From an uncultured Opitutia bacterium (GTDB taxonomy: Bacteria; Verrucomicrobiota; Verrucomicrobiia; Opitutales; Opitutaceae): a stretch of DNA of 35,823 nucleotides. Below are positions 1,941-27,370 of the stretch, piece by piece. Under the pieces are notes generated by a model. It was not told the origin of the DNA and searched no databases. It was given only the letters and a program-made list of their open reading frames with translations. The stretch's first letter is position 1; the number at the start of each line of letters is the position of its first letter. The stretch is taken from the NCBI GenBank assembly GCA_903820035.1, contig CAIJFT010000055.1:1-35823 (forward strand). The letters are read 5' to 3'. The position numbers were made by a program, and so were the translations under genes.

Positions 1941-4900
1941 ATGAATTCGCGCGTTATCCTGTGGTTGCTTGTGCTCGTCACCGGCCTCGTCCCGGCTGCT
2001 TCCTCCTCTGCTCAGACTGCGTCCGCGGCATCCAGCGGCGGTTCCGTCACCGGCCGCGTGCAGAACGCCGCCACCGGTAACTACCTCAACCGCGCGCGCG
2101 TCGCCCTCAAGGGCACCGACCAGGTGGTCTACACCGATGAGTCCGGCACCTTCCGCCTCGCCGACGTCCCGGCGGGCCAGGCCCGGCTGGAGGTGTTCTA
2201 CACCGACCTCGATGTGCAGGAGGTGACCGTCACCGTCGCCGCCGGCGGCATCGCCGAGCAGAATGTCGCCCTGACGAGCAAGGAGCGCTTCGGCCAGACG
2301 GGCGGGGTGGTGAAGCTCGACCGCTTCCTGGTCGCCGCGGAAAAAGAGGAGAGCGCCCGCGCCCTCGCCGTCAACGAGCAGCGGTTCGCGCCGAACCTCA
2401 AGAACGTCATGGCCACCGACGAGCTCGGCGCCGTGCTCGGCAGCAACGTCGGCGAGTTCCTGAAGTTCATCCCCGGCATGACGGCGGAGTATTCCGAGGT
2501 GGAGATCGTCGGCGTCTCCGTCCGCGGCATCGGCGGTTCGATGACGTCCTTCACGTCCGACGGAGCGACGATGGTCAGCGCGAACGCCTCCCCGGGCCGC
2601 ACGTTCAACATGAACACCCTCGCGCTGAACAACATCTCGCGCATCGAGGTCACCAAGATCCCCACGCCGTCGACGCCGGCCGACTCGCTGGGGGGCTCCG
2701 TGAACATGGTCACCAAGAGCGCCTTCGAGCGCAGCGAGGCCCGCCTCAACTACGGGGTCACGCTCATGGCCAACCACGAGAACCTCACCTTGAACAAGAC
2801 CCCGCACACCCTCGGCGATCACCTGACCCGGAAGATGTTCCTCGGTTTCGAGTTCGATTACACGCTGCCGGTGACCAAGAACTTCGGCGTCGTCGTGACC
2901 GGCATGCAGAGCGACAAGTACAACGAGCAGCACCTCTCGACGACCCTGTTCACCGCCCTCGGCACCGGCACCAACTCCTCCTACAGCAAGCCGTTCCTCC
3001 AGCAATACACCGTCCAGGACGGCCCGCGCAGCCAGTCGCGCACCAACTTCGGCATCAAGGCCGACTGGCGCGTCACGCCGAGCGGCGTCCTGTCGTTCAA
3101 CGTCCAGCACAACGCCTACCGCACCTACATCGGCACCCAGACCTGGGCGTTCAACGCGGGTACCGTCGCCGCCCCGAGCGTAGCCACCGGCGTGCCGTTC
3201 AGCTTCTCGGAAAAGGAGACGATCGGCGCGACGGGCCGCGGGTCGCTGACCCTTTCCGGCGGCGGCCAGACCTTCCTCGGGGCCACGGACCAGTACGGCC
3301 TCAAGTACCGCCACGACGACGGCCAGTGGCGCATCGACGGCGGCCTGAGCGCCTCGCTCTCAGATCGCTCCCGCCCGAATCCCGGTCACTTCGGCGGGAT
3401 CTCGGCGAGCCTCGTCGTGCCGGTCCGCGTGTCGTTGCGGAACATCGTGCTGGACCGGCCGTGGACCATCGAGGCCTTCGACAACGCGAACAACCCAATC
3501 GACTACTCCAACCTCGCGAACTACTCGCTGGCATCGGGTACCGAGCAGCCCTACAACAACCGGTCCGACGTGCGCTCCGGCCACCTCAATGTGCGCCGCC
3601 GCTTCAACGTCCTCCCGTTCCCGACCGCCCTGCAGGTGGGCGGCTACCAGAGCGTCATGAAGGTCGACGCCCGGGTGCAGACCACGACGTATTCCTACGC
3701 CGGACCGGACGGCAACGTCGCCACCCCCGACTCGCCGGCGCCCTATGCCATGCAGGTCTACAAGAACCAGGACTCGCTCTACGGCTTCCGCAACATCCCC
3801 TGGATCTCGGTGGACCGCGCCCATGCGGCGCTCAACCTGTTCACGCTCACGCCCGCCAACCTGGTCGCGTCGGAGCAGTCCCGCATCACGGGTTCGGAGT
3901 ACATCAAGGAGACCGTCTCCGCCGCCTACCTGCAGGCCGAGGCCCGGCTCTTCCGCAACCGGCTCAATGTCGTCACCGGCGTCCGCTTCGAGAAGACGGA
4001 CGACGCGGGACAGGGGCCGCTCGTCGACCTCGGCGCGATCTACCTGCGCAACGCCGGCGGCACCTTCCTGCGGAACGAAGCCGGCCAGCGCATCCGCAAG
4101 CCGGAGGCCGGTGCCGCCGGCTCGATAGAGGAGCTCCGGCTCACCCGCTTTGACCGCGGCTACAAGGCGGCGCGGTCCTACCAGGGGGCGTATCCGAGCC
4201 TGCACCTCACCTACGACGTCACGGAGAACTTCCTCGTGCGCGCCGCCTACGCCAAGACCTATGGCCGCCCGGACCTGACCGACGTCATCCCGAACGCGCA
4301 GTTCTCGCAGAACGACCTGAACGAGCAGGACCAGAACAACCCCGCGATCGTCAAGGGCACCATCACCGTGCGCAACACAGCGCTGCGGCCGTGGACGGCG
4401 GACAACTTCGACCTCTCCGCCGAGTATTACACCGCCGACGGCGGCGTGTTCAGCGCGGGCGCCTTCCGGAAGGACATCAGCAACTTCTTCGGCACCCAGG
4501 TGAAGCTGGCGACCACCGACATGCTCGAGGACCTCGGGCTGGATCCCGCCTACGTGGGCTGGAACGTGAGCTCCAAGTTCAATTCCGGTGATGCCCGGAT
4601 CAGCGGTGCCGAGTTCAACGTCCGCCAGTCGCTCCGGCGCCTCGGCAAGTGGGGCACGCCCTTCACGGTGTTCGCCAACGCCACCTACATCCACCTCGAG
4701 GGCAGCCGGCAGGCCGACTTCACCAGCTTCATCCCGAAGACCGCCAACTGGGGCGCCACGTTCAACTGGCGGCAGCTCAACCTGGTCGCCCGCTGGAACT
4801 ACCGCGGGCTCGACAAGCGCACCCCGCTGCCCGCGGTCGGGACGAACGGCTACCAGTACTTCGCCGCCCGCACCACGCTGGACCTCAACGCGTCGTACCA

Positions 4901-5060
4901 AGTCTCTCGCCGCCTCACGCTGATTGCCAGCGCTAACAACGTGCTCAACGTGCCCCAGACCCTCCTGCGCATCGCGGACGAGACGCCCTGGTACGCGCGG
5001 CAGAACCGGACGTCGGAATTTGGCATCGCCTTGGCCCTCGGCCTCAAGGGTACTTTCTAG
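1941..5060 (+). CDS. TonB-dependent receptor with N-terminal carboxypeptidase-regulatory-like domain (1)
   Basis: Outer-membrane active transporter of the large verrucomicrobial TonB receptor type, driven by TonB-ExbBD and probably importing an oligosaccharide or related ligand. The 1039-residue product has a Sec signal (MNSRVILWLLVLVTGLVPAA, cleavage after about residue 25), a carboxypeptidase-regulatory-like beta-sandwich (about 33-115; GGSVTGRVQNAATG..L..ARVALKGTD), the linker KLDRFLVAAEKE that precedes plug domains in this group, a plug (about 145-260; VSVRGIGG, RIEVTKIPTPSTPADSLGGSV) and a long beta-barrel ending in phenylalanine (GLKGTF), the usual C-terminal barrel signal. No porin-associated SusD partner is adjacent. 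A palindrome at 1857-1874 probably controls it. The gene is followed after 69 bases by a Gfo/Idh oxidoreductase, with a hairpin between them. The start lacks a Shine-Dalgarno sequence, like most genes here. Confidence 0.93.
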   Translation: MNSRVILWLLVLVTGLVPAASSSAQTASAASSGGSVTGRVQNAATGNYLNRARVALKGTDQVVYTDESGTFRLADVPAGQARLEVFYTDLDVQEVTVTVAAGGIAEQNVALTSKERFGQTGGVVKLDRFLVAAEKEESARALAVNEQRFAPNLKNVMATDELGAVLGSNVGEFLKFIPGMTAEYSEVEIVGVSVRGIGGSMTSFTSDGATMVSANASPGRTFNMNTLALNNISRIEVTKIPTPSTPADSLGGSVNMVTKSAFERSEARLNYGVTLMANHENLTLNKTPHTLGDHLTRKMFLGFEFDYTLPVTKNFGVVVTGMQSDKYNEQHLSTTLFTALGTGTNSSYSKPFLQQYTVQDGPRSQSRTNFGIKADWRVTPSGVLSFNVQHNAYRTYIGTQTWAFNAGTVAAPSVATGVPFSFSEKETIGATGRGSLTLSGGGQTFLGATDQYGLKYRHDDGQWRIDGGLSASLSDRSRPNPGHFGGISASLVVPVRVSLRNIVLDRPWTIEAFDNANNPIDYSNLANYSLASGTEQPYNNRSDVRSGHLNVRRRFNVLPFPTALQVGGYQSVMKVDARVQTTTYSYAGPDGNVATPDSPAPYAMQVYKNQDSLYGFRNIPWISVDRAHAALNLFTLTPANLVASEQSRITGSEYIKETVSAAYLQAEARLFRNRLNVVTGVRFEKTDDAGQGPLVDLGAIYLRNAGGTFLRNEAGQRIRKPEAGAAGSIEELRLTRFDRGYKAARSYQGAYPSLHLTYDVTENFLVRAAYAKTYGRPDLTDVIPNAQFSQNDLNEQDQNNPAIVKGTITVRNTALRPWTADNFDLSAEYYTADGGVFSAGAFRKDISNFFGTQVKLATTDMLEDLGLDPAYVGWNVSSKFNSGDARISGAEFNVRQSLRRLGKWGTPFTVFANATYIHLEGSRQADFTSFIPKTANWGATFNWRQLNLVARWNYRGLDKRTPLPAVGTNGYQYFAARTTLDLNASYQVSRRLTLIASANNVLNVPQTLLRIADETPWYARQNRTSEFGIALALGLKGTF

Positions 5061-15210: not shown

Positions 15211-16653
15211 CTAGAAATTCAGTTGGGCCGTGTAAGTCGAGCGTTCCGCGGCGCTCTGCAGTTCCTTCCACTTGGTGACTTTGTAGCCGCCGCCACCGAT
15301 CTGGCCGAGTGATTCGTCGTAGTGGAAATTAACGCCGCCAAGGAGGGTCATGTCCTTACAGCAAAAGGCTCCCATAATGTTCGTGCCGGAGTCGAAATTG
15401 ATGGTGGCGTTCTCCGCGATGATGGACCCGTAAAATGTGCCGCCGCCCCGGGTGACGAAGGTTTGGCTCGTGGGATTTGTACCGTAGATGGCCGTGTTGA
15501 CCGGGGCCTTGTTTTGGAACCAGTTCGCACCGGAGTCGAAGTTGATGTTGCCGTTGGTGTAGACGGTAAAGGCACCGTTGTCGCCGGCGCTAGTGCCGTA
15601 CGTGAAAGTGGCCGCGGAGCTGGTGTAGATTGCATTCACGCCGTTGTGCGCTGTCATAATAAATACGACCGGCTGCTTGATGGTCATGGTCCCGGAGGAG
15701 TAGACGATGCCTATTCCAGAGGCGAATTTGTAGTAGTACTTTCCGTCCGAGGCGGCGACGTCGCCGAACCGCGGAAAACTGGCCGAGGCCGTAATGTTCG
15801 CACTGATGGTGTTTTCGGCACTGTGCGCCGGGATGATAATCGCCGGAAACGTGTAGGTGAACGCCTTGTTTTCGAGGCCTGTGTTCCAGCCGCTTCCGCC
15901 CACGACATTCGTCAAGTTCGATGTCCCGGCCTTCGTGATGGTGCCGCCACCGGTGCTGATCGTACCGTAGATCGTCGCGTCGTTGCCGACGTTCAGGGCG
16001 CCGTTGCCGGTGGACACCACTCCGATGGGGCCGGTGGCTTTGGCCAGGCCGGAGGCATAGGGGCTGTACGCGCCTGTGCTGGGATTGGTGGATGCCCAAC
16101 TGTCGACCTTCAGGTTGCTGTCGCCGCGCAGGGAATTCTTGGCGACGAGCCCGGCAAACATGTTGCGTCGAGCGAGGGTGACTTCGATGAATTTGCGAAT
16201 TGGCGCTACACCGTTGGGCAGACTGACGGAGGAGCTCGCGACGATAACCACCGTGCCGGTGAGATCAAAGTTGCGGACGTAGACCTTGACGTCGCCGGTG
16301 GTGTTCGGTCCGAGCGTGAAGCCCGAATAGGTGCACGTTGCAATGTGCGTCGTCGTATTGGTAGTCCAACCCTCGGCGGCCGGCCAGGAGCTGGTCAAGT
16401 TCAGGCCGTTTACCTGGTTCTGGTTCAGGCAGTAGAGCGCGCGCTCCAATCCGGTTTCCGCGAGATTCATCGCGGAGTTGGAGTAGAAGCTGCGCAGCGA
16501 GAGATTGAGCGACGTCGTGCTCAGCTTCAGGTAGCTCACGAGCGAGATGCCAATGATCGCGGAAAGTAGGAGGCAGACGATGAGGACGCTGCCGCGCTGA
16601 GCGCGATCACGTTGCGAACGCGGCTGGGGATGTGGGCCCTTGGCGAGGTTCAT
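15211..16653 (-). CDS. PilX-like pilus assembly protein (long pseudopilin-associated protein)
   Basis: Third gene of a minus-strand pseudopilin operon. The 480-residue product has a positively charged leader and one N-terminal membrane helix in PilX style (RAQRGSVLIVCLLLSAIIGISLVSYLKL, about 18-45), then NSAMNLAETGLERALYCLN, a recognised PilX-type segment. The remainder is a long Thr/Ser/Gly/Asn-rich beta region with repeated motifs (FDSGANW, FDSGTNIMG, GTISTGGGTI), suggestive of a beta-solenoid or adhesin-like exposed domain; polactin-like bacterial beta-helices look similar, but no family is claimed. The open frame extends to a TTG at 16719, overlapping the upstream gene; ATG 16653 starts 13 bases after that gene ends and is preferred. 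Probably cell-surface or secretion-pilus component. Confidence 0.78.
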   Translation of the reverse strand: MNLAKGPHPQPRSQRDRAQRGSVLIVCLLLSAIIGISLVSYLKLSTTSLNLSLRSFYSNSAMNLAETGLERALYCLNQNQVNGLNLTSSWPAAEGWTTNTTTHIATCTYSGFTLGPNTTGDVKVYVRNFDLTGTVVIVASSSVSLPNGVAPIRKFIEVTLARRNMFAGLVAKNSLRGDSNLKVDSWASTNPSTGAYSPYASGLAKATGPIGVVSTGNGALNVGNDATIYGTISTGGGTITKAGTSNLTNVVGGSGWNTGLENKAFTYTFPAIIIPAHSAENTISANITASASFPRFGDVAASDGKYYYKFASGIGIVYSSGTMTIKQPVVFIMTAHNGVNAIYTSSAATFTYGTSAGDNGAFTVYTNGNINFDSGANWFQNKAPVNTAIYGTNPTSQTFVTRGGGTFYGSIIAENATINFDSGTNIMGAFCCKDMTLLGGVNFHYDESLGQIGGGGYKVTKWKELQSAAERSTYTAQLNF

Positions 16654-16666
16654 GGTTGATTTCAGC

Positions 16667-17242
16667 CTACTTGTTTCGAAGCAGGTAGGTGGCGGAGACA
16701 ATATTATCGGTCGAGGCAACGAGGGTGTTGCGCGTGTTGCTGACGCGCAGCGTTAGCTCCAAGCGCTTGGTCGCCGTGTCACTTGTGGTGCTGTTGCCGA
16801 GGACGTCGAAGCGGGAAAAGGTGCACTGCGTGACGTTCTTGATGAGTATCACCGGATCGACCGTTGAGCTGGTGGTACCGGGCCGACGGTAAAAACAGTC
16901 ATCGTAGGTGGTGCCGTTCAATGTCGCCGATCCGTACGCATAGGTGACCATGTTGGCTGTCGCGGTGTAGTTGTCCGGCACCGTCAGGGTCACCGAGGTC
17001 GAGCTGTTGTAGACGGAGTCACTCGCCATCCGCACGTCCTGAGCGAATTCCTCCAATGTACGGCGGGACTCGGCTTCCATGCCGTTGTAGTAGAACAGGC
17101 GTTGGCTGTTGCGACCTAGGGCCAGAAAAGTGGAAAGCACACCGGCGATGACTATGGCGCCGAAGGTTCCTGCGATCATCACTTCCGAGAGCGTGAAGCC
17201 GCGAGACGTGCGGCGGGAGCAGCGCAGAGTGATGGCGTTCAT
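16667..17242 (-). CDS. PilW-like prepilin-type protein
   Basis: Minor pseudopilin of the type IV pilus/type II secretion class, 191 residues. The prepilin peptidase site is clear: RRTSRG followed by FTLSEVMIAGTFGAIVIAGVL, with glycine at -1, phenylalanine at +1 and glutamate at +5, then the hydrophobic assembly helix. The segment RTLEEFAQDVRMASD after the helix is usual in PilW-like proteins; the C-terminal part is a beta-rich head ending in DNIVSATYLLRNK. It is the middle gene of a three-gene operon (12-base gap upstream, 13-base gap downstream) and would be processed by a PilD-type peptidase encoded elsewhere. Confidence 0.82.
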   Translation of the reverse strand: MNAITLRCSRRTSRGFTLSEVMIAGTFGAIVIAGVLSTFLALGRNSQRLFYYNGMEAESRRTLEEFAQDVRMASDSVYNSSTSVTLTVPDNYTATANMVTYAYGSATLNGTTYDDCFYRRPGTTSSTVDPVILIKNVTQCTFSRFDVLGNSTTSDTATKRLELTLRVSNTRNTLVASTDNIVSATYLLRNK

Positions 17243-17254
17243 GGCGGAGGCGGC

Positions 17255-17764
17255 TTACGAGGCGAAGAAGTCGTACAGCCCGTACCGGGCGTAGTAGGTC
17301 GTGTAGCTGAGGGAGAGCGTGCGCCCGTCGTAGTTCTGCCAAGTCACCGTCAGGGTGATCTGGCGTAAATCAGCCTTTGGGTCCGCCATTGTGCGGATCA
17401 TGGAGAACCGGTTTGCGATGTTGGCTTGGGACGTAAAGACGGGGTCGATCGTGATGGCCGGGTTGCTGCCCGTATAGTCGACGATTCCGATGACGGTGAC
17501 GGTTGAGCTCCACGGGCTCACCCGCATTTTCTCAATTTCACTCTGCATGATCTGTCCCGCGATCACGTAGTTTCGGGCGGAGTCGATGGAGGCGAAGCCA
17601 CGTTGGAGAGTCGTGATGGCGGTGGTGAGGGCGAAGGCCATAACGCACGCCCCAAGCATGACTTCGAGAATCGTGAACGCCTTTCGGGCGCCCGGTTTTC
17701 GGGTGCGCTGGCTGCGGTGGGAAGCCGAGGCGGCAGGCTGGGGGACTGGAGTGTTTTTTTTCAC
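17255..17764 (-). CDS. PilV-like prepilin-type protein, first gene of the operon
   Basis: Minor pseudopilin, 169 residues, starting at a GTG codon. A long basic leader (MKKNTPVPQPAASASHRSQR...) is followed by RKA-FTILEVMLGACVMAFALTTAI, with glutamate at +5 and the conserved hydrophobic helix. The residue at -1 of the cleavage site is alanine rather than the usual glycine; alanine is tolerated in some prepilins. The region AGQIMQSEIEKMRVSPW fits PilV-type proteins. It leads the operon PilV-PilW-PilX like; no motor, secretin or peptidase genes accompany it, so the proteins must join a system encoded elsewhere. The upstream 258 bases contain a strong palindrome. Confidence 0.8.
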   Translation of the reverse strand: MKKNTPVPQPAASASHRSQRTRKPGARKAFTILEVMLGACVMAFALTTAITTLQRGFASIDSARNYVIAGQIMQSEIEKMRVSPWSSTVTVIGIVDYTGSNPAITIDPVFTSQANIANRFSMIRTMADPKADLRQITLTVTWQNYDGRTLSLSYTTYYARYGLYDFFAS

Positions 17765-18022: not shown

Positions 18023-21000
18023 TTACACGCTGCTCACGACCCGGGTGGGAAAGCCGGCGTAGGTCTTTCCCGGCAGCAGGCGCTCGTATTTCATCACCAC
18101 ACTATGCGCCGCAACTTGGGTTCTCACGCCGATCTCGGCCCCGTAAAGCAATACCGCCGCGCGCCCGACCGTCGCCTCCCGGCGCACAGTCACACGATCC
18201 ATCTTTAATACGCGGTCCTCGAAGGTGTGAGCCTGAAAGTTGCACTCCACCGTCGCACCGTCCTCGAAGGTCAGCATGTCCGGATCGGGCAGATCCTGGG
18301 CGAACGTGCCGCCGAGTACCACGCCCCGGCCGACGCGCGAGCCCGCGGCGCGGAGCAGAGCGTTTAACCACAGGGTGCCGGCCAGCGACGACGCCACCGG
18401 CGGCACGTAGAAACTCCAGGCCATACAATGGAAATCCCAGCGGCTGGCCCAGCACGACCAAAGTGCGTGCACGTCCGGCCGTACGCGGCCCAACAGGATC
18501 CACTTCACCGCTAGGCCCAAGCCGGTCAGGGTCGCGAAGAAGGTGACCGTGGTTGCGGGGCCGGCCACCAGCAGCAGCGTGACGGTGGAGACGCGGTCCG
18601 CGAGCGAGTCGACCAAACCATAACAAAGCGGTACGAGCACCGCCGGGGCGGCGGGTAGGGTGAAGCGCAACCCTTCCCAGAATACACGGTTCACGTAGCG
18701 CAATGCCGACGGTGCGTGGGTCAGGCGGGCGTCGATTTGGATGACCTGTCGCTGGGGGAGTTGGAACGGTGGGTGGCCGAACCAGGCGGTGCCGGGGCGG
18801 ATTTTATCCGGATCGGCAGTGGTGCAGACGCCGATCAGGATATTGTCGGGTAGGTGTTGACCACCGCGGATGATCACGCCGTTGCCCAGAAACGTATTGG
18901 CCCCGAGCCGCACGGTCGCGAGTTCCACCGTGCCGCGGTGAACGCGCGGACCGCCAAGGTAGATCCCGTCGGCGCAAAAGGTTTTTTCCCCGATCTCGAT
19001 CAGCTCGGGCACCGTGTCGATGAGGCCGCTGATTTCGCAGCCGCGGCCGATTTTCATCCCGGCTAACCGGAGCCAGTGCGGCCAAAATAGCGTGCCGTAC
19101 AGCCACTGTCCGGCGGAATCTACCAATGTCGTCTTCAGCCACACCCGCACATAACCCGGGCTCCAACGGCTGATCACACCCGGCTGCACCCGTCCGAGGG
19201 CGCGGCAAACCAGAGCCTCCAAGGCGAGCGTGAGCGGTGTGGCGAGGGTCGCGACGGCGGCCAAGCCGAGCAGCATTCCTATCGCAAAGGACGGCTTGTG
19301 TGACCACGTGATCACCTGCGTGGCGTCGATGCCGAAGCCGCGCGTGAGCGCGAGGGTGAGCGCTTCCGCCGGCAGCGCCAGCACCGCCAGTACGCCAAGG
19401 CGGGCCGCGATCAACTGCAGGCCGGCGTGCGCAGGCGCAAGCTCCCGCTGGGGTCCGGTGAACTGCGGCGGTAAGGGAGCCTTGCCGGTCGCGGCGGCCG
19501 GCACGCCGTCCCAGGATTCGCCCGCCGGAATAGTCGCGCCGTTGCCCAGCGAGGACCAAGCGGTGAGGTAGGCGTTGGGTCCGACGGTCGCGCCCGGGCC
19601 GATGCCGGAGTGGACCTCGAGTGTGCAGCCGTGGCCGAGGGTGATCCGACCGACGACGATTTCGCCGGCCTCCAGTTCGACCATCCGCAGGGTGACGTCT
19701 TGGCTGACCGTCACGTCGTCGCCGATTGCGAGTAGATCCCAACCCCCGTGCAGTAAGTCGACACCCCGGTGCAGATGGACCCGGCGGCCGATTTTGGCGC
19801 CGAGGGCGCGGAGCGCCATGCACTGAAACTCCGTGCCCTCCAGCAGCCACCATGGCACGATCCGGACGGTCTGCTGCATCATCCAGTTTCGGACGTAGAA
19901 ATTGCCCCATACCGGCGCCCGCAGCGGCTGGTAGCGGCCGATCAGTGAACGTTTCGTGGATACAGCGAGGGCGACGGAAAGCGGTACGAAAAGCGCCAGG
20001 GTCGCTAGGCCGAGCAGCGGGGCGAGCAACACCGCGGTCACCAGGCCCAGCCTTTCAATCAGCCCAGGCAGGAAGTGAAACGTACCAAGATAAAGCAGGG
20101 CCGAACCGATCAGGATGTCCTTTGCGAGCCAGAGGGTTTGGACGACGGTGGCTAGGAACGGGCGCCCGCGTTCGCGCGGGGTCGCGTCGGAGTTTTCGGC
20201 GGGTGCGATCGCGTCGGCGCGAATTCGCGGGGCGATTCCGGCGATCGTCCGGCCCTCGTAGAGATCGCGCACGGTCAACGACGCCAGCCCCGGGGTTTCG
20301 CGCAGCAACGACGTGGCGACCGCGGCGCTCAGGGAATCGCCACCGAGATCGTTGAAGAAATCGTCTTCGATCGACACCGGCTGGCTCCGATTGAAGACTT
20401 GGCAAAACACCTCGGCGAGGCGGCGTTCCGCGTCGGTCCGCGGTGCAACCCGCGCCGCGGCGCCCCCAGTCTCCGCAAGGTCGAGCGCGGGCAGCAGTCG
20501 TCGGTTGAGCTTGCCGCTGGCGCTGCGCGGCAGGGCTTGAATCAGCTGCAAGCGGGCCGGCACCATGTAGGCGGGCAGCACGCGACGCAGCGCGTCGGTC
20601 AGCGGCTCAAGTGTGGGTGGATGGTCGGGATCGGCGGGAACGACAAAGCCTACCAGCACCTGCCGCGTCGCCTCGCCCTGTACGGTGCAGGCGGCTTCCC
20701 GGACGCCGGTGCATTCCATGAGGCGCGCTTCAACCGCCTCCAATTCCACCCGATAGCCGCGGAGTTTCACCTGGGCGTCGATCCGGCCGAGATAGTAATA
20801 TTCACCACTCGGACCGCGCCGCACGAGATCACCGGTACGGTAAATCCGGCCGAGCCGTGGGTGGAAAGGGAATTTTCCTGCCGTCAGGTCCGGCTGTCCG
20901 CGGTACCCACGGGCTAGGCCGACCCCCCCGAGGCACAACTCGCCGGGGTCGCCGGCCGCGACCTCGGCGAGGCCGTCCGACAAGACATACGCCGCCAGGC

Positions 21001-22012
21001 CTGGAACCGGCCGGCCGATAGCGATCTCTCCCGGGCCTTCGATTCTGGTGCGCAGCGACGTTACGGTACACTCGGTGGGCCCATAGCCGTTTTCCAGCCG
21101 GCGGCCGCGCGACCACCGGGCGGCGACATCGGCCGGCAGCGCCTCGCCGCCAACGTAAACCAGTCGAAGTTCGGGTAGCGCCAGGTCCGGCCGCTCGCAA
21201 CCGGTGGTGCGCAGGAGCGTGGGCGGCGGACAAAGTACGGTGAGCCGTTCGCGTTGCAGCCAGGGCACGAGGTCCGGGCCGAGCCGGACCGTGTCGTCGT
21301 CCATCACGACGACCGTCGCGCCCGAGGCCAAGGCGAGCCACACCTCCTCGACCGAAGAGTCGTAGGAAACGGACGAGCCTTGCGCTACGCGGTCGCCGGG
21401 GCGGAGCCCGTATTCACTCAGATCGGACGCGACGAGGTTCGCGATGCTGCGGTGCTCGATCATCACGCCCTTCGGGCGACCGGTGGTGCCCGAGGTATAG
21501 ATCACATAAGCAAGGCTCGAGGGGGTAAGCCAAGCCATGGACCGAGGCTCGGGCCGGACACTTGGGGCGTCGCGGAGGAGGCGGGAAACCTCCAGCAGTG
21601 GTGCGCTCGTGCGACCCTCGAGCCGTTTGCGCCCGGCGGCGTCGGTCAAAATGGCAACGGCTTCCGTGTCATGGAGAATTTCGCCGACCTGGGTGTCGGG
21701 GAAAGCCGGATCGATGCACGTGTACGCGGCACCGGCTTGCAGGACGGCGAGCTGCGCGGCGTAGAGGGTCGCTGAGTTCCTTGGAAGCTGAATGACCACC
21801 AGGCTCTCACCCTGAACCAACGGTTGCAGGGCAACGGACAGGATGCCGGCTTGGTGCTGCAGCCCCGCGTAGGTGACCGTCTGTCGTTCCGAGCGGCCCG
21901 GTCCGGGTGGTACGTCGATGGCAATCTGGTCCGGCCAGCGCGCTAAGGCACGAGCGAAAAACGCGTGGAGCAGCTCCCCTGCGGTCGCGGCCGGCTCGGA
22001 CACCGAGGTCAT
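18023..22012 (-). CDS. Pls-like nonribosomal peptide synthetase (amino-acid homopolymer synthetase-like)
   Basis: Multidomain membrane enzyme of 1329 residues with the layout of epsilon-poly-L-lysine synthetase (Pls). Adenylation domain about 10-510: A3 YTSGTTGRPKG (172-182), A4 SYDSSVEEVW, A5 NGYGPTE (308-314), A7 YRTGDL (391-396), A8 GRIDAQVKLRGYRVE, A10 lysine K501. Carrier domain about 525-600 with DLGGDSL; S560 would carry phosphopantetheine. Then three blocks of membrane helices (about 633-685, 865-935, 1118-1175), each followed by a hexapeptide-repeat left-handed beta-helix (about 736-840, 986-1080, 1226-1329). In Pls these C1-C3 domains make the isopeptide chain; no condensation or thioesterase domain is present. 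Pocket residues read by eye are D, S, E, C, V, V, G, V, T; the E matches that of lysine domains. ATG 22012 overlaps the SET gene stop (ATGA). An open frame to 22153 exists but runs inside that gene. Confidence 0.88.
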   Translation of the reverse strand: MTSVSEPAATAGELLHAFFARALARWPDQIAIDVPPGPGRSERQTVTYAGLQHQAGILSVALQPLVQGESLVVIQLPRNSATLYAAQLAVLQAGAAYTCIDPAFPDTQVGEILHDTEAVAILTDAAGRKRLEGRTSAPLLEVSRLLRDAPSVRPEPRSMAWLTPSSLAYVIYTSGTTGRPKGVMIEHRSIANLVASDLSEYGLRPGDRVAQGSSVSYDSSVEEVWLALASGATVVVMDDDTVRLGPDLVPWLQRERLTVLCPPPTLLRTTGCERPDLALPELRLVYVGGEALPADVAARWSRGRRLENGYGPTECTVTSLRTRIEGPGEIAIGRPVPGLAAYVLSDGLAEVAAGDPGELCLGGVGLARGYRGQPDLTAGKFPFHPRLGRIYRTGDLVRRGPSGEYYYLGRIDAQVKLRGYRVELEAVEARLMECTGVREAACTVQGEATRQVLVGFVVPADPDHPPTLEPLTDALRRVLPAYMVPARLQLIQALPRSASGKLNRRLLPALDLAETGGAAARVAPRTDAERRLAEVFCQVFNRSQPVSIEDDFFNDLGGDSLSAAVATSLLRETPGLASLTVRDLYEGRTIAGIAPRIRADAIAPAENSDATPRERGRPFLATVVQTLWLAKDILIGSALLYLGTFHFLPGLIERLGLVTAVLLAPLLGLATLALFVPLSVALAVSTKRSLIGRYQPLRAPVWGNFYVRNWMMQQTVRIVPWWLLEGTEFQCMALRALGAKIGRRVHLHRGVDLLHGGWDLLAIGDDVTVSQDVTLRMVELEAGEIVVGRITLGHGCTLEVHSGIGPGATVGPNAYLTAWSSLGNGATIPAGESWDGVPAAATGKAPLPPQFTGPQRELAPAHAGLQLIAARLGVLAVLALPAEALTLALTRGFGIDATQVITWSHKPSFAIGMLLGLAAVATLATPLTLALEALVCRALGRVQPGVISRWSPGYVRVWLKTTLVDSAGQWLYGTLFWPHWLRLAGMKIGRGCEISGLIDTVPELIEIGEKTFCADGIYLGGPRVHRGTVELATVRLGANTFLGNGVIIRGGQHLPDNILIGVCTTADPDKIRPGTAWFGHPPFQLPQRQVIQIDARLTHAPSALRYVNRVFWEGLRFTLPAAPAVLVPLCYGLVDSLADRVSTVTLLLVAGPATTVTFFATLTGLGLAVKWILLGRVRPDVHALWSCWASRWDFHCMAWSFYVPPVASSLAGTLWLNALLRAAGSRVGRGVVLGGTFAQDLPDPDMLTFEDGATVECNFQAHTFEDRVLKMDRVTVRREATVGRAAVLLYGAEIGVRTQVAAHSVVMKYERLLPGKTYAGFPTRVVSSV

Positions 22013-22566
22013 GCCGGCGGCAGCGCCGCCTCCCGGGCTAAAAGTCGCGCCAAGTGGGGCGCTAGCCAAGGCCGCAGTCGCTCGCGTTCCACCTCCGGCA
22101 GCAGTTTGAAGCCGCCGATCCGGCCGAGGCAGCGCGGGCTGCCACAGTGGCACGAGAACGGCTCGGCCATCTGATACTCGGTCGTGAGGTAGTTGAAGGT
22201 TACTTCCTCGCCAGCGCTCAGATCGCGCAGCGCAAAAACGTCGGTCCCCTGCAGGCGCGCGCTGGGTTCACAGGCGTGATTCATGAACTGCCACGGAGCG
22301 CGCCGAGTCTGGTCATCCGCGTCGGGGGCATCGAAGGGATTCAGGTGAATGTCCTCGCCCACTTGCACCGAGTAGCGGTCCGGCTCACGCCCCGGGCGAC
22401 CTTCGATGTGAAAGAGCTGCTCGCCCTCCGCGACCGGCCGCACGGTCACCAGCCGGTGGAAGCCGCCGTTGCGGAGTATGGCCACGGTAGTGGAAAATTG
22501 GACGGGTACGGGCAGCCGGGTTTCGGCGGAACGTACGGTAGTCGGTTGGGGCATGGGAGTCATCAT
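22009..22566 (-). CDS. SET-domain lysine methyltransferase-like protein
   Basis: 185-residue protein with the C-terminal half of a SET domain and a complete post-SET zinc-binding tail. Visible motifs are NHACEPS (96-102, the NHxCxPN SAM-binding/catalytic loop), FALRDLSAGEEVTFNY (with Y126 as the catalytic tyrosine candidate) and CHCGSPRCLG with C139, C141 and C146, the post-SET cysteines. The N-terminal part (ILRNGGFHRLVTVRPVAEGEQLF) fits the opening SET strands. SET enzymes transfer methyl from SAM to lysine side chains. The stop overlaps the start of the Pls-like synthetase by ATGA, so the two are translationally coupled; methylation of a lysine-containing polymer or of the synthetase itself is a hypothesis. 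ATG codons at 22566 and 22563 both fit; neither has a Shine-Dalgarno sequence. Confidence 0.87.
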   Translation of the reverse strand: MMTPMPQPTTVRSAETRLPVPVQFSTTVAILRNGGFHRLVTVRPVAEGEQLFHIEGRPGREPDRYSVQVGEDIHLNPFDAPDADDQTRRAPWQFMNHACEPSARLQGTDVFALRDLSAGEEVTFNYLTTEYQMAEPFSCHCGSPRCLGRIGGFKLLPEVERERLRPWLAPHLARLLAREAALPPA

Positions 22567-22769: not shown

Positions 22770-24176
22770 TCAGTTGCCCGCTTCGGCGCGGGTGCGGCGG
22801 ACCAGATCGTGTACCTTGGTCACGATTTTCTCTTCCAGACCTGGGGTCCAGGGACCGGGCCGGCCGTGCGGAATCATTGACGTGTCGCCCTCATAACGGC
22901 CTTCCTTGAGTACCCGCTCGTTGGGAATGTAGGCCATCACATCGGTCGAATAGCCGAGCACCCACAAGCTGTCGCCGAGTTCCCGGCGCAGGCGCAGACT
23001 GTAGTCGACGACGACTTCACCACCGAGGGCGACCCAACCGAGATTGCCGAGGTGCCAGGCTTGAATGGGGTAGTTGTAGCGGCGGATGGCATCGCCCTTG
23101 TCGCGGAGTTGTTGCGTGATCGCGGCCGACCACGCCTGGTGCATCTCTTTGTTCGGTTGTTCCTTCGTGGCGGCTTCGTGCAGTTTTTCCGCGGTGGGAA
23201 TCTTCGCGAAGGTGAGGGTGATGTCCTCGAACGCCGAAGTGAAGCGGCCGGCGGTCGGGGTCAGCTTACCCTTGAGGGCGCGGTCCGCGGCGTCGGCGAG
23301 GTCGCGCCCGTGCTGTTCGACGTGGGCCAGTTCACGACGAGGGGACGGGTTGATGTCGGCGCCGCAGCCCATCGCGAACATCACGGTCGCGCCCGGGTGC
23401 CGCCGCTCGAGTTCCGCCTGCGCGCTGCCGGCATAGTCGCCGTGCCATTGGTAGAGCATGAGCGTGGTGTTGTGGCAGGCATACGATACGAGCAGGCCGC
23501 GCAACGCACCGTCTTCCCCGTGGATCGCCAGGATTGGGACGCGCGGGTCCGACGGGCCGCGCAGTTTACCCGCGGCGCGGAGGGCGGGCGCCTGCGCTTC
23601 GGTATTCTCCCGGCGGTTGATGCCGAAGGTCGCCGCGTCGGCGCCCCAACTGATCGTCGCGGGGGCGAGCGCATCGAGTGCCGCGCTCGCGGCGCGCACC
23701 ATTTTGATTTCCAGCTCATGCCGGAAGGCAACGGCCTTGCCCAGGCCGTCGACCGGCAGAATCCGCAGGCCCGCGATGCCGCCCTCCATCCAAGGAGAAC
23801 AGTGGGTGTGCGAGACGTTCGTCATGATCGCGCTGCGGGGCAGGGCGTAGCGGGCCATCAACTCGATGGCCACGCGGTCCGAGACGACGCGCGTGATGTC
23901 GCAGAGGTCGAGGGTGAGCAGGACCCCGCGGTTGCCGGCAGGGTCCGAGAACGCGAGTGCCTTGACCCACAGGTCTTGGGCGGTGCCGTCGGCCGGTTTG
24001 TCGCGCACCGCGTAGCCGGTCATCCAGACGCCCGCGGGGGGCGTGATTTTTTCCCGGCCGGTGCCGGCCCGCCAACCGCTTTCTGCCGCGGGCAAGATGC
24101 CGGTCGCGACCGCGAGTGCGAACAATGTGGCCAGCCGGAACAGGTGCGGGAGGACGGGGCGGATCGGTGTGGGCAT
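22770..24176 (-). CDS. Neutral/alkaline ceramidase-like exported hydrolase (PF04734), paralogue 3
   Basis: Third member of the family in this window, 468 residues, with a Sec signal (HLFRLATLFALAVATGILPAAES). Motifs: REKITPPAGVWMTGYA (41-56), SHTHCSP (122-128), SYACHNTT with H235, and FAMGCGADINP (267-277). The GDYAGSAQAELERRHPGATVMFAMGCG region follows the usual pattern of this bacterial subgroup. It is divergent from TonB receptor 2; the shared 203-base promoter carries two copies of a GTAAC-N6-GTTAC palindrome, one only 9 bases upstream of this start, so binding there would probably repress it. Function is inferred to be hydrolysis of an amide-linked acyl group from a ligand handled by the adjacent receptor; substrate unknown. 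Confidence 0.87.
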   Translation of the reverse strand: MPTPIRPVLPHLFRLATLFALAVATGILPAAESGWRAGTGREKITPPAGVWMTGYAVRDKPADGTAQDLWVKALAFSDPAGNRGVLLTLDLCDITRVVSDRVAIELMARYALPRSAIMTNVSHTHCSPWMEGGIAGLRILPVDGLGKAVAFRHELEIKMVRAASAALDALAPATISWGADAATFGINRRENTEAQAPALRAAGKLRGPSDPRVPILAIHGEDGALRGLLVSYACHNTTLMLYQWHGDYAGSAQAELERRHPGATVMFAMGCGADINPSPRRELAHVEQHGRDLADAADRALKGKLTPTAGRFTSAFEDITLTFAKIPTAEKLHEAATKEQPNKEMHQAWSAAITQQLRDKGDAIRRYNYPIQAWHLGNLGWVALGGEVVVDYSLRLRRELGDSLWVLGYSTDVMAYIPNERVLKEGRYEGDTSMIPHGRPGPWTPGLEEKIVTKVHDLVRRTRAEAGN

Positions 24177-24184
24177 GGTGGCGT

Positions 24185-24200
24185 GTAACTGTTGGGTTAC
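24185..24200. promoter_or_regulatory. Candidate operator B1 (GTAAC-N6-GTTAC)
   Basis: GTAACTGTTGGGTTAC, a palindrome with five-base arms, 9 bases upstream of the minus-strand PF04734 start. Its centre is exactly 85 bases from that of operator B2 at 24270-24285. A third copy is at 31295-31310. Confidence 0.65.
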
Positions 24201-24269
24201 CTCCGAGGCAAGCGATTAACCCGGAGCCGGGCTGGAGCCGGAAATCTGCTTGCCATGGCTGGAGCCGAA

Positions 24270-24285
24270 GTAACCTTATAGTTAC
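24270..24285. promoter_or_regulatory. Candidate operator B2 (GTAAC-N6-GTTAC)
   Basis: GTAACCTTATAGTTAC, same arms and spacing as B1 and B3, 95 bases upstream of the TonB receptor 2 start. It follows three direct copies of GGAGCCG at about 24223, 24234 and 24261. Confidence 0.7.
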
Positions 24286-24379
24286 ATCCGATTCGGTGCA
24301 CCCTGTGGCGGATGTCATTTCTTCCGGCCCCGGCCTGATGGGACAAGATTTGCTCCGTTTGCCCCTTTTTAAGACCACT

Positions 24380-27370
24380 ATGAAGCTGAAGCATCTCCTC
24401 TACCGGTTGATCCGCGCGCTGCCGCTTGCCGGCTTTAGTCTCTGCCTCGCCGCCTCCTCCGCATTGTACGCCCAGAAAGCTGCTGACGGCACCGTGAGCG
24501 GGGTTGTTTCTAACCTCGCCACCGGCGATCTCCTGCCCGGCGCTGTCGTCGCCTTGGAGGGGACGTCCCTTGCCACCACCACCGAGCGCGGCGGTGGCTA
24601 CAACGTCACCGCTCCCGCGGGTAACTACACGCTCGTGGTGACCTATGCCGGCCTCGATGCCATGCGGGCACCGGTCGCGGTCTCGGCCGGCCAGACCGCG
24701 GTGCGCGACGTGCAGATGACCTCGGGCGTCTACAAGATGGACACCTTCGCGGTCAAAGGCGTGCGCGAAGGCAGCGCGCTTGCCATCCAGGCGCAGCGGC
24801 AGTCGGACAATCCCAAGTGGGTCGCCGCCACCGATACCTTCGGCAATCCCGCGGCGAACCCCGGTGAGTTGATCCAGCGTCTGCCCGGCATCTCGACGGA
24901 CATCGTCGGCTCCGAGGTCCGCTCGCTCTACGTGCGCGGCATGGGTCCGGGGTTTTCTTCGCTCATGGTCGACGGCGACCGCGTGGCCACCTCGACCGGC
25001 ACCTCGGGCAGTCGCGATTACCAGATCGAGCAGATGGGGACGGGAAATCTGGAATCCGTCGAATTGATCAAGGCCCCGCAGCCCGAGCAGGACGCCAATG
25101 CCGTCGCCGGCTTCGTGAATCTCGTACCGCGGCGGGCGTTCGACTTGCCGGGCCGGCGGATCACCGTCACGGGGGGCGTGATGTGGCGCAAACGCGGCTT
25201 CAGCGGCAGTCCGTTCGAGGACAAGGCCGACAACCTCGACCTCGTGAACCTCGGCTACTCCGACGTGTACGATGCGTTCGGCGGCCGCCGCAACCTCGGC
25301 ATCGCGTTTAATGTCGGTCGCCGCGTTTCCTATACCACGCAGGACGAGATCGGGCCGGGCGGCGTATTGTATAATTTTGCGCAGACCTACCTCAACCCGA
25401 CGACCGCCAATCCGCTCACGCGGCTCTTTGGCACCGGCGACTTCGGCTACGCGGCCAAGGCGCGCAACGCCGGTCTCAGCGTCGACTACAAGCTCAGTCC
25501 CGACGCGTTTGTCTTCGCCAAACTCTCGTACAACACCAACGACCAATATCAGGTCTACTACCGCCCCGGCTTCGGCAACCCCGGCGCCACCGCGGCCAAT
25601 TTCACGCCCGACAGCACTTACGAGCACTCGGTCCTCCTCCCGAGCACTGCGTCGATCGGCATCCTTGAGACGACCCCGGCGTTCACCAAGAATTCGCGCA
25701 ACTTCAGTTTCAGCGGCGGCACCGAGTTCAAACTCTTCAACCGCTCGGCCACGGTCAGTCTTCGCGGCAACTATTCGCACGCCGACATCTCGTACCCCGG
25801 CTGGATTCGCGCGCAGGCCCGCACGCCCGCCACCGCGGCCGCGGGTATCGGTTTTGAAATCGATCGCCGCGGGCAGGACGCGTGGTACCCGATCTTCCGT
25901 CAGACGGCCGGCCCGTCGATCTACGACCCGGCCAGTTACCTGATGTCGACGATGCAGAAGCAGTCGTACAAATCGCCCAACGACCTGTACGGTGCGCGGC
26001 TCGACTTCACGAAGAAGTTTTCTGCCAGTATGCCCGTGACGCTCAAGGCCGGTGCGAAGTACGCGACCGACGAGCGCAAACCGATCACCGATTTCGCGGT
26101 CTTCACTTGGGTCGGCAAGGACGGGGTGGCGAATTCGGCCGACGATGCCCTCACGCCCTACGCCGACTTGAAGTCGTACCAGGGGGATGGGCGCTACGGC
26201 CCGTTTCCGTTTATGACTGCGCCGGCGTCGACGCCCGAGGGGTATTGGAAGCAGACCGCCGCCGACGCCTACAACAGCTACGCGACGGCAAATGCGAGCA
26301 ACGCGAAATTCCGCGAGACGATTTCCGCCGCGTACATCCAGGGTTCCACCAAACTCGGTCCGGTTCGCATGCTGACCGGCGTCCGCTTGGAGGAGACTGA
26401 AACCGAAGGCACGGCTTGGGCCCGCAACACGACCGTCTCCTGGGGTGGCAACAGCGTGGGTGGCGCGAGCCTCGACCCGGTGACCGTTGCGGCAAACGCC
26501 GCGCGCGCACAGCGCTCGTTTGCCCGCCGCAACACGGCCAAGGGCAAGTACCATGATCTCTTTCCCGGCATCCACTTCGTCTACGAGCCGTTGGCGGGCT
26601 TGTTGATGCGCGCGAGTTACAATCGCGCGATTTCACGTCCAGCGGTTGCCAGCCTGATCCCGACGGTCAGCGAAAACTCGGAAAATAACACGGTCACGAT
26701 GGGCAATCCCGACCTGAAGCCGTACCACACCGATAACTTTGAATTCAGCGTCGAGAAATATTTCGAGCCCGTGGGCCTCTTCAGTATCGGTGTGTTTCAG
26801 AAGAATATCTCCGATTACACGCGGACCTTTGCGTCCACCGTCCCCTCCGGTGGCATCGACGGCAACGGGCTCTACGCCGGCTATACCCTGACGACGACCC
26901 TGAATGTCGGCGACGCGCGGATTCGCGGCATTGAAGCGAGTTATCAGCAGCAGTTTAGTTTTCTGCCGGGTGCGTTGAAGGGATTGGGCGCGTTTGCCAA
27001 TTATACCTATCTGGAGGCCGAAGGCTCCTTCGGGGCGACGACCACCACGACGAAGCTCGGCAATCTCGCGCCGCGCAGCGGCAACGGCGGCCTCAACTTC
27101 CGTTATCGTGGCCTCGATGTGCGCTTTCTGGCCAACTGGACCGCTCAAAAATACAAGAGCACCGTCACGAACATCGACGTGTATAACGAGGAGCGCCTGA
27201 TGTTGGACATCAAGCTCCAGTACAGCATCAACCGCCGCTACGATTTGTTCCTCGATGCGACGAACATCACCGACGAGGCGCCGCGTACGGATGTGGCCCT
27301 GAACGGCCTGAAGTTCTTCAAGACGAATCAGGGCGTCGGCTTCGTCGCCGGCGTGCGGGGCCGTTTCTGA
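24380..27370 (+). CDS. TonB-dependent receptor with N-terminal carboxypeptidase-regulatory-like domain (2)
   Basis: Second large outer-membrane TonB receptor, 996 residues from ATG 24380, which opens a signal peptide (LPLAGFSLCLAASSALYAQ). It has a carboxypeptidase-regulatory-like domain (about 35-115; GTVSGVVSNLATGDLLPGAVVALEGT), a linker VYKMDTFAVKGVREGS, a plug (about 140-260; PGELIQRLPGIS, LYVRGMGPGFSSLMVDGDRVA, VELIKAPQPEQDANAVAGFVNL) and a barrel ending GVRGRF. Barrel motifs such as RASYNRAISRP and NPDLKPYHTDNFEFSVEKYF match the TonB receptor barrel region. The frame is open from 24116, but that part is promoter DNA with operators. It is divergent from PF04734 paralogue 3 and 152 bases upstream of the triple RidA gene; ligand unknown. 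Confidence 0.93.
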   Translation: MKLKHLLYRLIRALPLAGFSLCLAASSALYAQKAADGTVSGVVSNLATGDLLPGAVVALEGTSLATTTERGGGYNVTAPAGNYTLVVTYAGLDAMRAPVAVSAGQTAVRDVQMTSGVYKMDTFAVKGVREGSALAIQAQRQSDNPKWVAATDTFGNPAANPGELIQRLPGISTDIVGSEVRSLYVRGMGPGFSSLMVDGDRVATSTGTSGSRDYQIEQMGTGNLESVELIKAPQPEQDANAVAGFVNLVPRRAFDLPGRRITVTGGVMWRKRGFSGSPFEDKADNLDLVNLGYSDVYDAFGGRRNLGIAFNVGRRVSYTTQDEIGPGGVLYNFAQTYLNPTTANPLTRLFGTGDFGYAAKARNAGLSVDYKLSPDAFVFAKLSYNTNDQYQVYYRPGFGNPGATAANFTPDSTYEHSVLLPSTASIGILETTPAFTKNSRNFSFSGGTEFKLFNRSATVSLRGNYSHADISYPGWIRAQARTPATAAAGIGFEIDRRGQDAWYPIFRQTAGPSIYDPASYLMSTMQKQSYKSPNDLYGARLDFTKKFSASMPVTLKAGAKYATDERKPITDFAVFTWVGKDGVANSADDALTPYADLKSYQGDGRYGPFPFMTAPASTPEGYWKQTAADAYNSYATANASNAKFRETISAAYIQGSTKLGPVRMLTGVRLEETETEGTAWARNTTVSWGGNSVGGASLDPVTVAANAARAQRSFARRNTAKGKYHDLFPGIHFVYEPLAGLLMRASYNRAISRPAVASLIPTVSENSENNTVTMGNPDLKPYHTDNFEFSVEKYFEPVGLFSIGVFQKNISDYTRTFASTVPSGGIDGNGLYAGYTLTTTLNVGDARIRGIEASYQQQFSFLPGALKGLGAFANYTYLEAEGSFGATTTTTKLGNLAPRSGNGGLNFRYRGLDVRFLANWTAQKYKSTVTNIDVYNEERLMLDIKLQYSINRRYDLFLDATNITDEAPRTDVALNGLKFFKTNQGVGFVAGVRGRF

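Follow-up and report, generated by a model that had tools for sequence, protein, structure and literature searches.

A recurrent pairing of a SET-domain methyltransferase gene with a Pls-like, one-module nonribosomal peptide synthetase gene

In the window, by which we mean the whole 35,823-nucleotide stretch of DNA analyzed here, a gene for a small SET-domain methyltransferase overlaps a gene for a one-module nonribosomal peptide synthetase (NRPS) of Pls-like layout. That this partnership recurs outside the window is well supported by genome context. We tentatively propose that the two-gene operon directs the formation of a cationic polymer of arginine type, methylated either on the monomer or on the chain, a reading that we regard as a serious possibility, though somewhat short of probable.

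RESULTS

The SET and synthetase genes overlap on the minus strand

The SET/post-SET methyltransferase gene (22009..22566, minus strand) encodes a protein of 185 amino acids, P0002, with a Pfam SET match over the cut-off, and the Pls-like one-module NRPS gene that follows it (18023..22012, minus strand) encodes P0001, of 1329 amino acids, with Pfam and TIGR02353 matches. The stop codon of the one and the start codon of the other share an ATGA (22009..22012, minus strand), so that the overlap claimed by an earlier sequence-only reading is borne out both by direct reading of the letters and by the domain matches of the two products. GGGAGG lies 16 nt 5' of this overlap, a long spacing. The synthetase start is placed at the ATG at 22012, the mechanical open reading frame extending farther to a GTG at 22153; in two of the three same-genus orthologues examined the start also lies near the ATG, and the third is a longer open frame. 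Because the upstream neighbor gene ends 203 nt before the SET gene and the downstream neighbor gene starts 258 nt past the synthetase gene, the pair appears to stand alone as a putative two-gene operon. A promoter and terminator scan at the locus found nothing above chance.

A simple gene caller chose an overlapping plus-strand ORF over the minus-strand SET gene, whose frame has a GC content by codon position of 0.71/0.50/0.77. The minus-strand SET gene is real, because its product matches the Pfam SET domain and has conserved relatives. Elsewhere in the window, a pilin-like trio (15211-17764, minus strand) lies downstream of the synthetase gene and includes a DUF7305 protein over its cut-off, with PRK10557-like and XpsI-like matches below theirs, and two large proteins (1941-5060 and 24116-27370, both plus strand) match proteins near the synthetase in genomes G018 and G024. 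A search with anti-phage system models gave no match.

P0001 has a Pls/PosA layout and scores below the curated cut-off

The AMP-binding, AMP-binding_C and PP-binding models of Pfam all score over their cut-offs in P0001, with the adenylation (A) domain at 20510..21958 (residues 19-501) and a carrier (PCP) domain carrying GGDSL at 20231..20422 (PP-binding, residues 531-594). Beyond them, an AlphaFold model of residues 600-1329 from a five-row alignment (pLDDT 80.7, pTM 0.84) predicts three successive repeats, each made up of helices and a beta-helix. The first consists of a helix pair at 19943..20161 (residues about 618-690, with a hydropathy peak at 650-687) and a beta-helix at 19481..19801 (about 738-844, with a Hexapep match at 802-831); the second of a helix group at 19199..19435 (about 860-938, with hydropathy peaks) and a beta-helix at 18776..19063 (about 984-1079); and the third of a helix group at 18491..18706 (about 1103-1174, with weak hydropathy peaks) and a beta-helix at 18032..18343 (about 1224-1327), all of these features being on the minus strand. 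Profile matches to hexapeptide enzymes in the PDB coincide with the three modeled beta-helix places, the middle one being weak (E about 0.007). A fold search with the C-terminal model gave low query TM-scores, and the 50 matches listed, out of 476, were nearly all hexapeptide acyltransferases.

The C-terminal part of P0001 (residues 650-1322) aligns with TIGR02353, the Pls/PosA terminal domain, over almost its full length and scores 371.8 bits, which is below the curated cut-off of 423.1; the eight same-genus synthetases, the window's included, score 331-385. No thioesterase is found among the Pfam matches of P0001. An A-PCP unit followed by three membrane/beta-helix repeats without a thioesterase is the layout of Pls/PosA, and on this point the sequence-only reading was correct, as Pfam, the TIGR02353 match and the model agree. 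Because the curated cut-off is not reached and the pocket code is not one for a diamino acid (Lys, Orn, DAB or DAP), we file P0001 as a variant of the Pls/PosA kind and not as a member; judged by its sequence, it belongs to a distinct DSECYGGVTK branch beside them.

The adenylation pocket suggests an arginine-like substrate

The pocket of P0001, read by script, is made up of D218, S219, E222, C261, Y286, G288, G309, V317, T318 and K501, giving the code DSECYGGVTK. As a control, the script read three other synthetases (G025, L117 and L128) as DMEHNGTVSK, the code published for PosA. Of 28 orthologue rows tried, 25 yielded an A-domain code. It is exactly DSECYGGVTK in 19 of these (two of which, L114 and G530b, are the same sequence), it matches in all 9 positions read in G862, and it differs at one or two positions in five (G024, G014, G009, L116 and L118), the SET-bearing L116 differing at position 4. 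Two of the remaining rows (G019 and G007) have no A domain on the contig, and the third (G823) is truncated, the four positions that could be read being GVVK. DSECYGGVTK is found in none of 11 other rows (G1013, G078, G025, G001, L117, L119-L123 and L128). The same script read DAESIGTVVK in L123 and DAESIGTVIK in L121, and alanine at code position 2 is lysine-type by the rule given in PMC10522769.

Two further observations concern these more distant synthetases. L121, a Pls-type synthetase with this lysine-like code, lies on a contig labeled as a Klebsiella pneumoniae MAG. Within the same order as the window, 14 genomes of family f19 (G078, G183, G227 and 11 others) have synthetases 33-37% identical to P0001, and G078, the only one of them read, has the PosA-like code DMEHNGSVTK.

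According to PMC10522769, the position equivalent to E222 binds the side-chain amine in PosA, and a Bdellovibrionales CHPA homologue, Bdello_A (OFZ39577.1), has the code DSECYGGVTK. There, the isolated A domain of Bdello_A did not favor four diamino acids and activated L-arginine modestly; its authors suspected a larger analogue and left the preferred substrate open. Because DSECYGGVTK is the code of this one assayed homologue, the substrate of P0001 is probably arginine-like and not lysine. The "lysine-type" polymer of the sequence-only reading was consequently rejected on the pocket code, which differs from the lysine-type DAESIGTVVK and DAESIGTVIK and is shared with a homologue that activated L-arginine and did not favor the diamino acids.

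P0002 is a SET-domain protein distantly related to BurB

P0002 scores 32.6 bits against Pfam SET (cut-off 22.4), and its SET core and post-SET region (22111..22377, minus strand), as aligned with BurB, comprise an RYSVQVG strand (residues 64-70), H97/C99, Y126, TTE (128-130) and CxCG...C (139-146). All nine subfamily members in the nine-row alignment A4, P0002 included, match Pfam SET, and H97, C99, Y126, E130, C139, C141 and C146 are among its invariant positions. With a score over the cut-off, the active-site tyrosine and the post-SET cysteines, P0002 belongs to the SET-domain methyltransferases. A two-row AlphaFold model of P0002 reached a pLDDT of 33.

The best PDB match of P0002 is BurB (9l4t; 5e-12), followed by an H3K4 histone methyltransferase (1.9e-8), and its PDB matches are nearly all histone enzymes. 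A profile of the nine members gives BurB at 1.5e-17 and the next match at 4.4e-12, the alignment covering BurB 46-156. The relationship to BurB is not a close one: the 5e-12 of P0002 compares with 2e-45 for the SET protein of a same-family relative (L036; G041:C63, about 1231-1755), which is probably a methionine S-methyltransferase on sequence grounds. The genome of L036 gave no synthetase match above 34.4 bits. BurB S-methylates free methionine and holds it by main-chain contacts (PMC12542666), and because of this the residues of P0002 are uninformative on its substrate.

The adjacent pair recurs in what is likely a second phylum

When named genome contigs were scanned with the synthetases of the window's genus, at least 80 loci were obtained. 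Among the loci listed were four full-length close orthologues (45-52% identity), from a Gemmatimonadota MAG, a Novosphingobium, an Anaerolineae MAG and genome G411 (L116), in the last of which the synthetase gene is immediately preceded by a SET gene (41% identity over 134 residues, E 6e-31). The phylum of G411 is likely distinct from that of the window, since 268 genomes of the window's phylum gave only the window's own close orthologue. At E 1e-150 the synthetase was found in 9 of 246 genomes of the G411 phylum, and a SET profile run on the 246 genomes found six close SETs (at least 173 bits; next 78). In G411, G788, G862 and G864 the SET gene immediately precedes the synthetase gene and has the same orientation. 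It is also directly upstream in G836, which the synthetase search missed because the contig ends within that gene; the fragment is 51% identical to the G862 synthetase. In G717 the two are on different contigs. All six SET genomes of this phylum thus have a synthetase, and six of the ten synthetase genomes have a SET, the profile search having found no close SET in G726, G759, G771 and G823. The hypergeometric value for this co-occurrence is 1e-7, which was counted before G836 was added and ignores phylogeny.

Order, strand and tight spacing are alike in six genomes, the window's included, the gaps lying between a 4-nt overlap and a distance of about 41 nt (start codons inferred), and the five pairs measured have A-domain identities of 48-57% and SET identities of 32-45%. 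With adjacent SET and Pls-like genes in five genomes of the G411 phylum, the pair is conserved beyond the genome in which it had first been noticed. The earlier suggestion that coupling implies a stoichiometric partnership is weakened by this range of gaps and by the many orthologues without such a SET. The SET query of the tblastn searches was possibly a gapped alignment row, and its matches agree with those of the profile searches for the genomes shared. Both the window and G862 have SET genes that the gene calls of our neighbor survey miss; the recurrence of these genes rests on the separate searches.

SET and synthetase co-occur without being adjacent in Gemmatimonadota and on plasmids

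In Gemmatimonadota, the synthetase is present in 7 of 240 genomes and a close SET in 18 of 249 (at least 144.8 bits; next 94). Six of the seven synthetase genomes are also among the 18 SET genomes, and the seventh, G446, gave no close SET in the profile search. The synthetase is absent from the SET surroundings fetched, so the genes are unlinked there. The hypergeometric value, 5e-7, ignores shared ancestry and comes from SET and synthetase samples that differ slightly. No synthetase match came from 12 of the 18 SET genomes (240 of the 249 having been examined), which suggests that the SET family also works alone. SET and synthetase identities correlate (r = 0.84) over 78 genome pairs that include closely related Gemmatimonadota, and outside these there is no plain trend, for which reason we do not rely on the correlation.

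Among 72,556 plasmid records, four match the synthetase (E 1e-100), and the same four match the SET (1e-12). These are Streptomyces plasmids that look like one lineage, judging from the two viewed, where SET and synthetase are about 13.6 kb (NZ_CP108254.1) and about 10.4 kb (NZ_CP109039.1) apart and a SulP sulfate permease gene comes after the SET gene. Four hypothetical proteins of about 458-464 amino acids stand in a row after the synthetase in one such region (L250, 14220-20339); none of the three scanned has a Pfam match.

The SET gene is optional among synthetase orthologues

In the window's genus, 8 of 27 genomes have a synthetase orthologue, and a SET of the P0002 subfamily was found in none of the seven others, the sister genome G024 among them; several of the seven are incomplete MAGs. 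Neither the Novosphingobium nor the Anaerolineae MAG has such a SET. The A-domain tree shows at least six changes of SET status. Presence of a SET is not reflected in the code, as DSECYGGVTK is found in most orthologues without one. The SET tree groups the window's SET with that of the Streptomyces plasmid with moderate support (92/85).

Our neighbor survey turned up no gene besides the SET that keeps its position and strand from one group to another. A BNR/sortilin-type protein is encoded just downstream of the synthetase in G409 and G530, and one of about 35% identity lies upstream on the opposite strand in G717. The synthetase regions of G409 and G530 (L114/L318) share 99-100% protein identity over many genes; one of the two G530 synthetases has an A domain identical to that of G409 and sits in this near-identical block, which is possibly a binning error or cross-contamination, and the second copy is G530's own. 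Large open frames around the SET in G006, G008 and G038 were considered as fusions of SET and synthetase; this was rejected for G006 and G008, where the stretches fetched have no synthetase match. Among the few viral loci listed, no SET-synthetase pair was noted. Two "Acinetobacter phage" records (CAKLQH020000021.1 and CAKLQF020000019.1) contain an NRPS 33% like P0001 over residues 100-790 and are probably host DNA.

DISCUSSION

Pls/PosA terminal domains polymerize without a normal condensation domain. By analogy, the A domain of P0001 would activate arginine, or a cationic amino acid of somewhat larger size, and load it onto the PCP, and the three membrane/beta-helix domains would link the residues into short cationic chains. 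The methyl group would be added by the SET protein, a small SAM-dependent methyltransferase, to the monomer or to the chain, during its growth or after. Sequence and genome context establish the architecture, the code and the recurrence of the pair. Polymer formation is drawn from Pls/PosA, the assay of a single homologue sharing the code is what points to an arginine-type substrate, and monomer or chain is the most likely methyl acceptor. We know of no SET enzyme that methylates arginine. SET enzymes may act on nucleophiles besides lysine, as SETD3 is reported to do on histidine.

The SET protein could supply the building block: it would methylate a free amino acid, and the synthetase would activate the resulting N-methyl-lysine, N-methyl-arginine or S-methylmethionine. 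The nearest solved relative, BurB, methylates free methionine, a larger analogue is suspected for Bdello_A (PMC10522769), Y286 beside E222 might hold a methylated cation, and a SulP gene follows the SET on the two Streptomyces plasmids viewed; however, the same code is shared by orthologues from genomes in which no such SET was found, and P0002 is far from BurB (5e-12 versus 2e-45 for L036), so that we consider this supply route unlikely, though not negligible. Because the SET is optional among same-pocket orthologues, product tailoring fits slightly better than an obligatory supply of monomer, which the relationship to BurB keeps as a candidate. We also think it rather doubtful that the SET is a small-molecule tailoring partner of the NRPS, making a methylated amino acid with a positive charge (S-methylmethionine, or lysine or arginine in N-methylated form) or else methylating the chain, and thereby yielding a permanently charged or N-methylated homopolymer of a type so far undescribed; where a SET is present, the methylated cation would then be the true DSECYGGVTK substrate. 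A lysine-type homopolymer (epsilon-poly-lysine) with SET-methylated amines agrees with the Pls/PosA layout and with E222 at the amine-binding position, but is very improbable given a code unlike DAESIGTVVK or DAESIGTVIK and a same-code homologue that was no more active with the four diamino acids.

The methyl acceptor may instead be the synthetase itself or another cell protein, for regulation or self-protection. Most characterized SET enzymes act on proteins, the PDB matches are mostly histone enzymes, and Gemmatimonadota SETs without a synthetase need another substrate; set against the nearest solved relative, which acts on a free amino acid, these points leave protein methylation improbable in our view. 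The two genes could also be neighbors by chance, or be transferred together as hitch-hikers with no chemistry in common, as the many orthologues without a SET, the repeated changes of SET status on the A-domain tree and the distance of SET from synthetase in Gemmatimonadota would allow. To this we give little credence, because order, strand and tight spacing are kept in six genomes despite the divergence of the five pairs measured and because the genes co-occur even when unlinked.

The product of DSECYGGVTK synthetases is an open question in print, as the case of Bdello_A indicates (PMC10522769), and a SET partner that recurs gives a direct way of approaching it, in that methylated candidates can be tested as substrates or products. 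If the proposal is true, SET chemistry, known mainly on proteins and on methionine in BurB, would extend to a nonribosomal polymer, and the pairing hints at a natural polymer, methylated and positively charged, that has yet to be described. In the open-licence literature, covered mostly at the level of title listings, no description of the SET-synthetase pair is apparent.

Among known systems, BurB (9l4t) shares with P0002 a short SET, a CxCG post-SET and an S/T-T-E after the active-site tyrosine, although P0002 is only its distant relative. The histone-lysine SET enzymes KMT2, ASH1L and SETD2 have the SET core and post-SET cysteines in common with P0002 and score below BurB against it. Bdello_A has a 10-residue code identical to that of P0001, and its isolated A domain activates L-arginine (PMC10522769). 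The Pls/PosA enzymes, which make epsilon-poly-lysine and delta-poly-ornithine, resemble P0001 in combining A-PCP with three membrane/beta-helix repeats and no thioesterase, and E222 of P0001 sits at the cation-binding code position as it does in them. P0001 is unlike them in its C-terminal score below the cut-off, its arginine-type code and, in some genomes, its SET partner, and on the A-domain tree its group forms a clade separate from Pls/PosA (100/100).
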